From Phycisphaerales bacterium (GTDB taxonomy: Bacteria > Planctomycetota > Phycisphaerae > Phycisphaerales > SM1A02), in NCBI GenBank assembly GCA_009692045.1, contig SIAA01000020.1:1-37160 (forward strand): 37,160 nt of DNA. The letters run 5' to 3'. A model generated the notes under the pieces. That model was not told where the DNA came from and ran no database searches. It worked only from the letters and a program-made list of their open reading frames with translations. Positions 224-5,530 of this stretch are shown one piece after another; position 1 is the stretch's first letter, and each line of letters begins with the position of its first letter. The position numbers and the translations under genes are program-made.

Positions 224-691
224 TACGCGGTGCGCCTCAACTATGGCGCGGACATGGATCCTTAATGACACCGACCCAGGTGTCTTTGTCCTCCAGGACG
301 CATCTATAAGCAAGTCTCTCAGCAATGGCTGGCGGGGGAAGTTTCCAGAATCAGAGTTGGAACTCCCCGTGGTGCGAACAGCAACCCCTCCGGAATCGAA
401 CCATACAACACCATCAAGTGGACCGTTGACGCAACCGCGATGTTTGGTGGCGCCAACCTCTCCGCGGCATTCGTTGGGCAGTACTGCCAACATGCTGCTT
501 TCACCGACGATACCAACCGTGGCAGTTTTCCCAGTGACAATGATTACGGCATGGTCGTTCAGGGCGGCTACCTGCTGAGCGAAAAGCTTGAAGTCTTCGG
601 TCGCTGGGAGTACATCAACGCGCAGCATGTGGCTTATCTCGGCACTGATCAGCAGTGGAACATCCGCGCTCAGCTCTAGGTCGCATTCTGA
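224..691 (+). pseudogene. Degraded porin paralogue
   Basis: One reading frame carries porin-like sequence (from about 350: VGTPRGANSN, then MFGGANLSAAF, KLEVFGRWEY, QQWNIRAQL) that lines up with the C-terminal third of the intact porin at 749-2356 (GQTGTPSDAP, WFFGGASIFVA, KWELFGRLEW, VVLRAQLQLLF). Lesions: TAA at 263-265 and TGA at 266-268 in the same frame; loss of the two or three strands that in the intact porin lie between KWELFGRLEW and the last strand; and TAG at 677-679 where the first porin has CAG, followed in frame by GTC GCA TTC TGA (VAF stop). The N-terminal two thirds is missing. A short frame-2 stretch at 224-262 (YAVRLNYGADMDP) may be an older piece, so the left edge is uncertain. 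A 240-base open stretch from ATG 440 remains but could not form a full barrel. Confidence 0.75.
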
Positions 692-2401: not shown

Positions 2402-5400
2402 ATGGCAGAGCGACAAGTCGCACGGATTGAGGTCAGACAGCTGGCGGGGGTCGATGATCCCGCGGGCAGTGGGGTAATCCGCGCCGCGGATCTGTCTGGC
2501 ATCAAGCTTGGCGGTCGCGTACAGAGTGCGGCGGTTTACCTCATCGAGAGCCAGGCGGACGCAGCGATGCTCGGGCGCATTGCGGGAGAGCTGCTCGCCG
2601 ATCCAGTGACGCAGTCGGCGACCGTGGCAGAAGGGCCGCCAACTCATCACAGCACGGCAGTCGAAGTACACCCGCTGCCCGGCGTGACCGATCCAGCTGC
2701 CCAGAGCGTGGAAACTGCTCTACGCGACCTGTTCGGAGTTGAGGCGACGGTAGTCACGGGAAGGCGATTCGAGTTCAGTGAAGCTAGTGCAGCCCTAGCC
2801 AAGACAGTGGCTGAGCGACTGCTTGCCAACACGGTGATTCAAGGGGTGCATGGCGGCGTCTTTCACCCCACCACGCTCCCCAAGGGGCACAAGCATGACG
2901 CGCCGGTACGCTCGATAGAGCTGACAACTCTCGACGGAGCCCAACTGGCAAAGCTCTCGCGTTCGGCGCACCTATTCCTCTCGTTGTCGGAAATGCAGGC
3001 AATTCAGACCGAGTATCGCCGCCAAGGGCGCGAGCCTCGCGAGATCGAACTGGAGACGATCGCACAAACCTGGAGCGAGCACTGCGTCCACAAGACTCTC
3101 AAGTCACCCATCAACTATCGCGAACTCGCGTCTGGCAAAGTCTCTCCTGCGAGCATCCGAGCCGAGGCGGCGGGCAGTTTCGCGCTGGCAAAAACCTGCG
3201 CCGAGGCGGCGGGCACTGCACTCGGCGCGCGACCCGGTCACACCGTGGATTCGTCCGGCAGCGTGAACATTGACAATCTATTGAAGTCAACCATCGCTGC
3301 GGCAACGCGCGCGCTCACTGATCCGGCGCAACCCAATCACATCGACTGGTGCCTCTCGGTGTTTGTTGACAACTCAGGAGTGGTGGCATTCGACGAAGAG
3401 CATGCTGTCTGCTTCAAGGTCGAGACTCATAATCGCCCCAGTGCCATCGAACCCTACGGCGGCGCTGCGACTGGCATCGGCGGATGTATCCGCGATGTCA
3501 TGGGTACTGGCCTCGGCGCCAAGCCCATCGCTTGTACAGATGTCTTCTGCGTCGCTCCCCCGGACATGCCTGACATTCCTAAGGGCTGCCTGCCCCCGCG
3601 CCGCGTCCTGACGCAGGTGGTGGCGGGTGTACGCGACTACGGCAACCGCATGGGCATTCCCACCGTGAACGGGGGAGTGTGGTTTGATGAGCGGCATGTA
3701 GGCAATCCGTTGGTGTTCTGCGGTACGGTCGGAGTAATGCCACGAGACAAGGTGCGCGGCCTAGTGCGTGCGGGCGATGTCATCGTTGCCCTCGGCGGGC
3801 GTACTGGTCGCGACGGTATCCACGGCGCCACATTCTCCAGCGCGGAAGTTGCCCATGCCCACGCCGACGAGTTCAGCCATGCCGTGCAGATCGGAAACGC
3901 CATCACCGAGAAGAAGGCGCTCGACCTGCTCCTGGCTGCTCGCGATTACCCCACGGGATGTCTGTATTCCGCGCTCACCGACTGCGGTGCGGGCGGCTTC
4001 AGCAGCGCGGTTGGCGAGATGGCCCGTGAACTGGGCGCGCAGGTGCACCTAGACCGAGCCCCAGTCAAATACGCCGGTCTCTCCCCCACAGAGGTGTGGA
4101 TCAGCGAGGCGCAGGAGCGCATGACTCTTGCCGTGCCACCGGCGAATGTCGGTGTGTTGCGGGCACTGTGTCTTGAGCATCAAGTGGAGATGTGTGACCT
4201 CGGGGTGTTCGGCAGCGTCGACAAGTCCATTCGCCTGTACTGGAACGCTGAGGAGATCGGCCGATTGGACACCCACTTCCTGCATGAGGGCGTACCGATG
4301 CCACGGCGTGAAGCGGTGTGGGACCCCGACCATGCCGCAGCGCAGGAGCCAGCAGTTGGCGATGGCTCAGGAGTTGGCCCAGCACTTCTCGACACTCTGC
4401 GCACACTCTTGGCGCATCCCAACATTGCCAGCAAGCAGTGGATCGTGCGCCAGTATGACCACGAAGTGCAGGGCACCAGCGTAGTGAAGCCCTTCGTTGG
4501 CGTGGGTTCGGGTGGGCCCTCCGACGCGGCTGTCATATCACCAGTACGCGGGTCATCTCGCGCTCTCGCCATTGCCAATGGACTCGCCACTGGACTCGCG
4601 GCCGATCCTTATTGGATGGCTCTGGCAGCCATCGATGAGTGTGTTCGCAATCTCGTATGTGTGGGAGCGCGAGCCGATCGCATTGCCATTCTCGACAACT
4701 TCAGCTGGCCCGACTGCGATGATCCGCGCAATCTCGGATCACTGGTGCGGGCAGCAGAGGCATGCTTCGATGGAGCGATGGCATACCGTGCGCCCTTCAT
4801 CTCCGGCAAGGACTCACTCCGGAATCAGTTTCGCACCGAGGATGGCAGGCTAATTCAGATTCCTCCCACGCTGCTCATCTCGGGGTTTGCTCCCGTTGAC
4901 GAGGACACGCGCTGTGTGACCATGGATGCCAAGTGCGCCGGCAATGCGCTGGTGATTGTTGGTGAGACTGGTGCAGCAATGGGTGGATCACACCGACTGC
5001 GGATGGGTCGGGGCGAACACCTGCCATCCGCTCTACCTCAGGTCAGCCTCACTCACGGCCCGCTCAATGCGCGCGAGGTCGCGCGCGAGATTGCCAGTGG
5101 AACTGTGCGCAGCGCCCACGACTGTTCCGAGGGCGGACTGTTACTGGCAGCAGCAGAGATGGCATTCTCCGGCGGCCTCGGCCTGACAGTCGACATCGGA
5201 GCGGTGCCCACGATTCGGAGTACGCCAAAGCTTGCGGCCAACCCTCTCACTGAAGCCGGGAGCGATGGCGATGCTTCATCCCCGTCAGCCTCCTGGTGTG
5301 AAACCACTTCGTTCGCAGAGACTCCCTCTCGCTACCTGCTGGAGATTGAGGAGGCGGAGGTCGCGGCGCTTCTTGAGAGGCTCGCCCGCAGAGGTGTTTC

Positions 5401-5530
5401 AGCCGCGAGGATCGGTTCATTCATTAGCACTGAGACAATGTCGCTGACCTGCCGCGGAGTTGCGATGGGCGAGATGAGTACAGAAAATCTGCGCCTTGCT
5501 TGGGAGAGCGGATCGAAGGGATGGCAGTGA
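2402..5530 (+). CDS. purL: Phosphoribosylformylglycinamidine synthase, PurL with fused tandem PurS-like domains
   Basis: This cytosolic enzyme makes FGAM from FGAR, ATP and ammonia (fourth step of purine synthesis). Residues about 8-75 and 86-152 are two PurS-like repeats (IEVRQLAGVDDPAG and VEVHPLPGVTDPAA starts), followed by the linker domain with TWSEHC at 223-228 and the ATP-site segment VETHNRPSAIEPYGGAATG from about 340; DCSEGGL lies near the C-terminus. At 1042 residues it is longer than stand-alone small PurL (about 740) and shorter than large PurL (about 1300) because the glutaminase is a separate gene, purQ, overlapping by 10 bases. In the large enzyme the N-terminal domain is known to mimic a PurS dimer, so two PurS-like repeats in cis fit an intermediate architecture. 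No separate purS is seen nearby. Start chosen at the first ATG after the porin, 6 nt behind TACACT. Confidence 0.95.
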   Translation: MAERQVARIEVRQLAGVDDPAGSGVIRAADLSGIKLGGRVQSAAVYLIESQADAAMLGRIAGELLADPVTQSATVAEGPPTHHSTAVEVHPLPGVTDPAAQSVETALRDLFGVEATVVTGRRFEFSEASAALAKTVAERLLANTVIQGVHGGVFHPTTLPKGHKHDAPVRSIELTTLDGAQLAKLSRSAHLFLSLSEMQAIQTEYRRQGREPREIELETIAQTWSEHCVHKTLKSPINYRELASGKVSPASIRAEAAGSFALAKTCAEAAGTALGARPGHTVDSSGSVNIDNLLKSTIAAATRALTDPAQPNHIDWCLSVFVDNSGVVAFDEEHAVCFKVETHNRPSAIEPYGGAATGIGGCIRDVMGTGLGAKPIACTDVFCVAPPDMPDIPKGCLPPRRVLTQVVAGVRDYGNRMGIPTVNGGVWFDERHVGNPLVFCGTVGVMPRDKVRGLVRAGDVIVALGGRTGRDGIHGATFSSAEVAHAHADEFSHAVQIGNAITEKKALDLLLAARDYPTGCLYSALTDCGAGGFSSAVGEMARELGAQVHLDRAPVKYAGLSPTEVWISEAQERMTLAVPPANVGVLRALCLEHQVEMCDLGVFGSVDKSIRLYWNAEEIGRLDTHFLHEGVPMPRREAVWDPDHAAAQEPAVGDGSGVGPALLDTLRTLLAHPNIASKQWIVRQYDHEVQGTSVVKPFVGVGSGGPSDAAVISPVRGSSRALAIANGLATGLAADPYWMALAAIDECVRNLVCVGARADRIAILDNFSWPDCDDPRNLGSLVRAAEACFDGAMAYRAPFISGKDSLRNQFRTEDGRLIQIPPTLLISGFAPVDEDTRCVTMDAKCAGNALVIVGETGAAMGGSHRLRMGRGEHLPSALPQVSLTHGPLNAREVAREIASGTVRSAHDCSEGGLLLAAAEMAFSGGLGLTVDIGAVPTIRSTPKLAANPLTEAGSDGDASSPSASWCETTSFAETPSRYLLEIEEAEVAALLERLARRGVSAARIGSFISTETMSLTCRGVAMGEMSTENLRLAWESGSKGWQ

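Follow-up and report, generated by a model that had tools for sequence, protein, structure and literature searches.

A probable porin remnant in the tandem porin array of a Phycisphaerales bacterium

The question

What is the stretch of DNA that lies between two porin genes at the very start of a contig of a Phycisphaerales bacterium: a gene copy in decay, an assembly error, a store of sequence for its neighbours or a short functional gene? The window, i.e., the whole stretch analysed here, is contig C58 with its 37,160 bases; the draft genome comprises 2.17 Mb in 74 contigs. The original prediction saw a porin pseudogene between two porins, and the lesions, the order of the pieces and the homology described below bear this out. 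With a probability of about 0.88, positions 218-691 are what is left of a porin gene that has lost its function and once belonged to a tandem array with the order holA - porA - porB - porC - purL - purQ, where holA, purL and purQ are putative names read off the sequences. In tandem arrays that evolve by birth and death, some of the duplicated members decay by deletions, frame shifts and stops, and the copy number varies among related genomes.

The features to be discussed, all on the plus strand, are the following.

1-78, plus: 3' end of the upstream porin, porA; 25 codons and the stop codon, GDEGAGWVDGSGQQWNIRAQLQVAF; the rest lies beyond the contig start
145-170, plus: terminator-like hairpin between porA and the remnant; stem of 11 pairs with tail
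218-262, plus: remnant piece a, read in frame 2 as WTYAVRLNYGADMDP; corresponds to C57 porin residues 148-162 (see below)
263-268, plus: TAA TGA, frame 2; point of a +1 shift of the reading frame
264-308, plus: remnant piece b, frame 3, NDTDPGVFVLQDASI; residues 163-177; may extend to about 332
309-366, plus: short pieces, scattered and set apart by deletions and frame shifts; their placement is doubtful
368-625, plus: remnant piece d, frame 2; residues 320-405, 86 codons, best preserved
641-691, plus: remnant piece e, read in frame 2; comprises the last strand, with TAG at 677-679 and the ancestral TGA at 689-691
749-2356, plus: porC, the intact downstream porin of the Porin_O_P family; the ATG at 767 is an alternative in-frame start
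2402-5530, plus: purL-like gene, which follows the array

Anatomy of the remnant

The anatomy was derived from a frame-aware alignment to the nearest intact kin, a porin elsewhere in the same genome. It is split between two contigs, the end of C57 overlapping the start of C67 by 149 bases; the joined gene (L017:1-1404, L018:1-197) encodes 483 residues and is here called the C57 porin. About 148 of its 483 codons are left in the remnant. Absent are residues 1-147 (30%), most of 178-319 and, bar a few doubtful residues, 406-467; in this last gap 406-432 and 438-467 are lacking, as had been predicted for the strands before the last one, and positions 626-640 perhaps represent residues 433-437. 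The prediction that the 5' two thirds are gone was too sweeping: the gene is indeed broken and its first 30% lost, but other frames still contain pieces of its middle, and the stretch 368-625 is well preserved. Nor does the remnant start at 224; it starts at or before 218, as the assignment of 218-262 shows.

Frame 2 (codons at 2, 5, 8 ...) is interrupted by TAA at 263-265 and TGA at 266-268, both of them foreseen, and by TAG at 677-679. Behind this TAG, V-A-F and the ancestral TGA can still be read in the same frame, again as predicted. The TAG itself had been described as a CAG-to-TAG change. It stands at its place, but two substitutions, CTTCAG to CTCTAG, are involved.

The absent first 30%, the deletions, the frame shifts, TAA TGA and TAG block a full product and thus make the stretch a pseudogene; its significant similarity to the C57 porin makes it a porin pseudogene. 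At the DNA level, 368-613 is 70% identical (E 1.6e-21); at the protein level, the identity is 63% over 91 residues (E 3.3e-33). Pieces a and b match only weakly if taken singly (E 0.014 and above), and their assignment is based on their standing in order; in this order they are also matched by the porins of four relatives, again weakly (E 0.014 to 0.08). The scattered pieces are exemplified by FQNQSW at 343-360 in frame 1.

A long antisense open reading frame (2-628) was considered as a gene and rejected: the open stretch antisense to porC is equally long (244 vs 233 codons). Directly 3' of the remnant and 5' of porC, a hairpin CTCTGGT...ACCAGAG is seen at 705-730; the surrounding 690-760 is no more stable than its shuffles (z -0.40).

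Signals of expression

The terminator-like hairpin behind porA is a strong one. The fold of 130-185 amounts to -30.3 kcal/mol with a z of -5.04. Within positions 1-1000, three terminator-like sites were found (145-170, 267-284 and 783-806), while shuffles give 0.6; the site at 267-284 is a weaker hairpin inside the remnant. The same 1000 positions contain no match to a sigma-70-type promoter, where it is to be kept in mind that planctomycete promoters may differ, and no known RNA family with an E up to 1. The remnant probably makes no porin, because it has neither start nor signal peptide, retains less than one third of the codons, lies behind a strong terminator-like hairpin and lacks a promoter match. 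A product that has neither start nor signal peptide and lacks most strands as well as the final residues would not be expected to form a porin.

Ancestry and age of the decay

As to the parent of the remnant, the last 45 bases favour porA: positions 647-691 agree with 34-78 in 41 of 45 bases, the longest exact match being 27 bases, whereas the C57 porin reaches 33 of 45. The near-identity of the 3' end with the porin ending at 78 had been predicted and is confirmed. The remainder is comparable only with the C57 porin (63% of the amino acids), since the contig starts at window base 1 inside porA and the upstream gene is not alignable as a whole. In a tree of 52 rows, built by a quick method and with the remnant filling 26% of the columns, the remnant is sister to the C57 porin with an SH-aLRT of 99.

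Similarity beyond the stop codon was considered as a sign of a recent tandem copy. The first alignments were suggestive, but the idea was rejected by a stop-anchored test, in which the similarity between remnant and porA was not significant (179 of 2000 shuffles reach it). A free local test yielded 9 of 1000, but in a different register.

The decay appears to be recent relative to the divergence of the copies. Over 86 codons, remnant and C57 porin differ at codon positions 1, 2 and 3 in 22, 19 and 45 cases, respectively, as in a functional gene. Moreover, the remnant shares more residues with intact porins of relatives than the C57 porin does in 8 of 9 comparisons (e.g., 63 vs 57; the exception is 46 vs 47). 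Both the codon-position pattern and the greater likeness to the porins of relatives argue for recent decay, as originally proposed; because the middle of porA lies outside the assembly, "recent" here covers the decay, not the duplication itself.

The C57 porin is itself dispersed. It lies between genes that we take to be glutamate dehydrogenase-like and DUF4139-like. Among 10 relatives, 6 have these genes side by side without a porin, and all of these belong to genus g54; in the flank of the other 4 no DUF4139-like match was found. Within flanks of about 1.5 kb, none of the 10 relatives has a porin match. Judged by this distribution, it is probable that either the lineage of the window acquired the C57 porin by insertion at this site or g54 lost it.

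The array in related genomes

Porin matches to porC are found in 178 of 181 genomes of the family, the own one included. Three named records contain a relative of porC; two are metagenome-assembled genomes of planctomycetes, and the third is the bin of an uncultured bacterium. For the survey of the array, 60 loci were fetched from the 177 other family genomes that match the porC protein. The usual order in relatives is holA - porA - [porB] - porC - purL - purQ, and the remnant occupies the optional porB place. The succession of porin(s), porC, purL and purQ is seen in 20 family loci, with holA ahead of the porins where the fetched stretch includes it; the gene downstream of porC in 20 relatives' loci is 56-61% identical to the purL-like gene of the window. 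G005 and G134 have an extra porin between porC and purL, and L062 ends at porC.

At least two complete porin frames upstream of porC were counted in 20 of the 60 loci, or in 24 if four loci with a frame cut by the contig end are included. A total of 25 was corrected to 24, as a 68-codon frame in L080 overlaps a complete porin. Twelve of the 60 loci show no complete frame upstream of porC; the stretch present there is short. Two or more porins precede porC in, e.g., G017, G077, G075 and G082, one in, e.g., G079, G080 and G070. Some relatives have an intact gene at the very place of the remnant. The original prediction had named this as a finding that would speak against it; it does not, since a decayed copy predicts exactly that. 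In the tree, the second porin of G082, like that of G017, falls among the first porins of its own genus, and the two porins of G025 group with each other, which means that copies come and go by lineage.

Broken porins are seen in three of the 60 loci, and they differ in kind. In G066 (L079), a porin remnant of about 60 residues lies between the end of porA with its terminator and porC, the exact place of the window's remnant; this contig, too, ends inside porA. G025 has a C-terminal remnant, the last ~121 residues of a porin without its 5' part (L055:4757-5119), upstream of an intact array. G140 displays a lone in-frame TAG (L057:8256-8258) in an otherwise open porin directly upstream of porC, which may be a fresh nonsense mutation or a sequencing error. 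The scan would miss remnants too short or too diverged for an E of 1e-4. The scans counted frames of at least 330 codons as intact and hence did not flag G140, which emerged from a check of the first 20 loci and three named ones. When all 60 loci were rechecked for matches that run through stops, L057 was again far ahead with 70 matches versus 0 to 19 elsewhere; among the two matches listed per locus, most of those outside L057 seem to extend past the start of a frame.

Several apparent cases did not survive inspection. In G153 and G151, matches of 17-18 residues were first taken for scars left by the deletion of a second porin; they turned out to be the porA terminator read as protein, the automatic start having been set inside the terminator. 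Short leftover matches in L052, L056, L063 and L087 overlap the leader upstream of the likely start, as judged from the sequences of L052, L063 and L087 and, for L056, by analogy. An internal stop in porC of G064 was discarded because the TAG stands just before the likely start.

The proposal of duplication and decay in a porin array is thus upheld by the paralogs in the genome, the syntenic arrays, the two intact porins upstream of porC in some relatives and the separate remnant of G066. The course of events may be pictured as follows. A porA-type copy probably arose in the window's lineage and was then disabled: it lost its first third, with the start, the signal peptide and the N-terminal part, suffered deletions in its interior and shifts of the frame, and acquired stop codons, among them the TAG in the last strand. 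The pieces, the lesions and the array with its variation among relatives are documented; the cause, we infer, was relaxed selection after duplication. The remnant is a case of ordinary birth-and-death evolution of duplicated genes. Some points do not fit smoothly: the assembly lacks the middle of porA, so that porA as the parent is favoured by the last 45 bases only; the similarity behind the stop that a very recent tandem copy should show is not significant; and the remnant lies within 700 bases of a draft contig end, where an assembly error is conceivable.

Contig ends and the possibility of an artefact

Such an error would mean that the stretch was stitched from variant reads near the contig end and that the genome contains an intact porin, or nothing, at this place. 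The contig does start inside porA, and C57 and C67 break inside another porin with their overlap of 149 bases. In the second genome of the genus, which is 55% complete, the assembly likewise stops inside a porA-like gene after holA. Taken together, these breaks suggest that such genes assemble badly. The downstream flank, however, agrees with the conserved gene order, the pieces stand in the right order with several independent lesions, and G066 has a comparable remnant at the same place, although its contig also ends inside porA. We therefore regard an artefact as quite improbable.

Contig C60 of the own genome ends with holA and about 110 codons of a porA-like porin, probably the 5' part of the porA gene; the gene order of relatives suggests that C60 and C58 flank one gap inside porA. 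As the ends of C58, C60, C57, C67 and G001:C189 document, porin genes are sites of assembly breaks in the two genomes of the genus. Draft genomes can break within these genes, and the porin numbers counted in them may accordingly be too low and are best read as lower bounds.

Possible recombination in the array

Two other genomes, both of genus g17, point to recombination between porin copies. In G156 (L116), the porin upstream of porC is mostly 94-100% identical to the second porin of G157, with 76-92% in a middle stretch, as compared to 37-82% with first porins; the 3' flank after the last strand, however, is of the first porin's type (81-83% vs 55-59%). In G151 (L115), the corresponding porin shows 77-97% identity to the same second porin up to the last strand, and the 3' flank is likewise that of the first porin (93-97% vs 63-67%). 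The windows compared comprised 120 alignment columns, about 105 of them compared at the switch. In both genomes coding sequence of the second-copy type runs into the first copy's 3' flank and terminator, with the switch located in the last-strand DNA. A crossover within an older array or an exchange with foreign DNA may account for it. One may consider the porin array between holA and purL as a recombination hot spot, with the near-identical last-strand DNA as crossover point and the decayed copies as by-products and possibly donors. We hold this to be rather unlikely.

Another reading has the remnant kept as a silent donor that is copied into the neighbouring porins by gene conversion and thereby diversifies them, as the silent cassettes of antigenic variation do. 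That the remnant may serve as a source of sequence for recombination had also been contemplated originally. The 27-base exact match to the porA tail and the pattern of G156 and G151, in which recombination between tandem porins appears to take place at the last strand, may be quoted in its favour. The cases of G156 and G151, however, involve copies that are not remnants, so that the recombination indicated there gives the idea no direct support. A variable cassette flanked by conserved borders is not seen in what can be compared: 27 exact bases are shared with porA at one end and no border shows at the other, most of porA being outside the assembly and the species being represented by one genome. 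Further, the remnant is a single copy with stops and frame shifts, its best part is just 63% identical to the sole comparable intact paralog, and broken porins in 3 of 60 loci are rare for a system. The silent donor is slightly less probable still than the artefact, and decay of a duplicated copy remains the preferred reading.

The weakest alternative, TAG being read as an amino acid in a short functional protein, could refer to the replacement of CAG by TAG with V-A-F and TGA behind it and to the single TAG in the otherwise open porin of G140; as the start and first third are missing and TAA/TGA at 263-268, frame shifts and deletions remain, a full porin is excluded by these lesions and the short protein is hardly worth considering.

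Apparently conserved leaders of porA-type genes

A side observation concerns the ~135-145 bases upstream of the porA-type genes, which look conserved and structured. Such a leader is found in the own genome on contig C60 (L026:336-503, minus strand) and 27 further times in front of porA-like genes, e.g., at L050:5141-5308 and L063:6341-6508 (minus strand). These were obtained from 31 motif matches, of which three were dropped: one proved false, and two belong to the second porins of G077 and G075, in front of which no leader is recognisable by eye. The layout comprises, in this order, a -10-like TATAGT/TATGATC, a stretch that reads TTCA or nearly so, three hairpins and AGGAGC; the first hairpin contains TCG...CGATA, and the second is a long one. 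The stem of the long hairpin shows compensating differences among the sequences of genus g54, and six g54 leaders fold alike by eye. Eleven leaders of the nearer genera yield 25 consensus pairs, 8 of them with two-sided changes, although between 0 and 9 of the 11 leaders retain the outer pairs of the long stem in this alignment; with 22 of the 28 leaders aligned together, the consensus fold is reduced to 3 pairs. In 8 loci searched, the leaders have no Rfam match at the gathering level. The apparent conservation of the leaders is more unusual than the remnant itself.

Comparison with known systems

By itself, the remnant means little: one porin copy is decaying, which is a known kind of thing. 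The comparison of genomes is more rewarding. The second copies upstream of one fixed porin, porC, are intact, absent, decayed or swapped, a small but clear example of porin copy-number turnover in an uncultured planctomycete family. Among the matches listed in the literature search, no paper on planctomycete porin arrays or porin pseudogenes was found, as judged by titles and the beginnings of abstracts.

PorC, which is related to the intact kin of the remnant, matches the Pfam model PF07396 (Porin_O_P, phosphate-selective porins O and P) with an E of 2.4e-7 and 30.8 bits versus a curated cut-off of 20.9; the remnant stretch 299-676 has no match to this model. With the silent donor cassettes of antigenic variation (pilS, vlsE, msp2), the remnant shares that it is a partial copy beside intact members. 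It differs in being single, in that no cassette borders are seen and in giving no sign that its sequence was copied. Its real counterparts are the pseudogenes of birth-and-death tandem arrays: the porins are duplicated, some are decayed, and the copy number varies between relatives. From these, no difference was found; the sole particular is that a porin array of a planctomycete, placed between holA and purL, is the site of the process.
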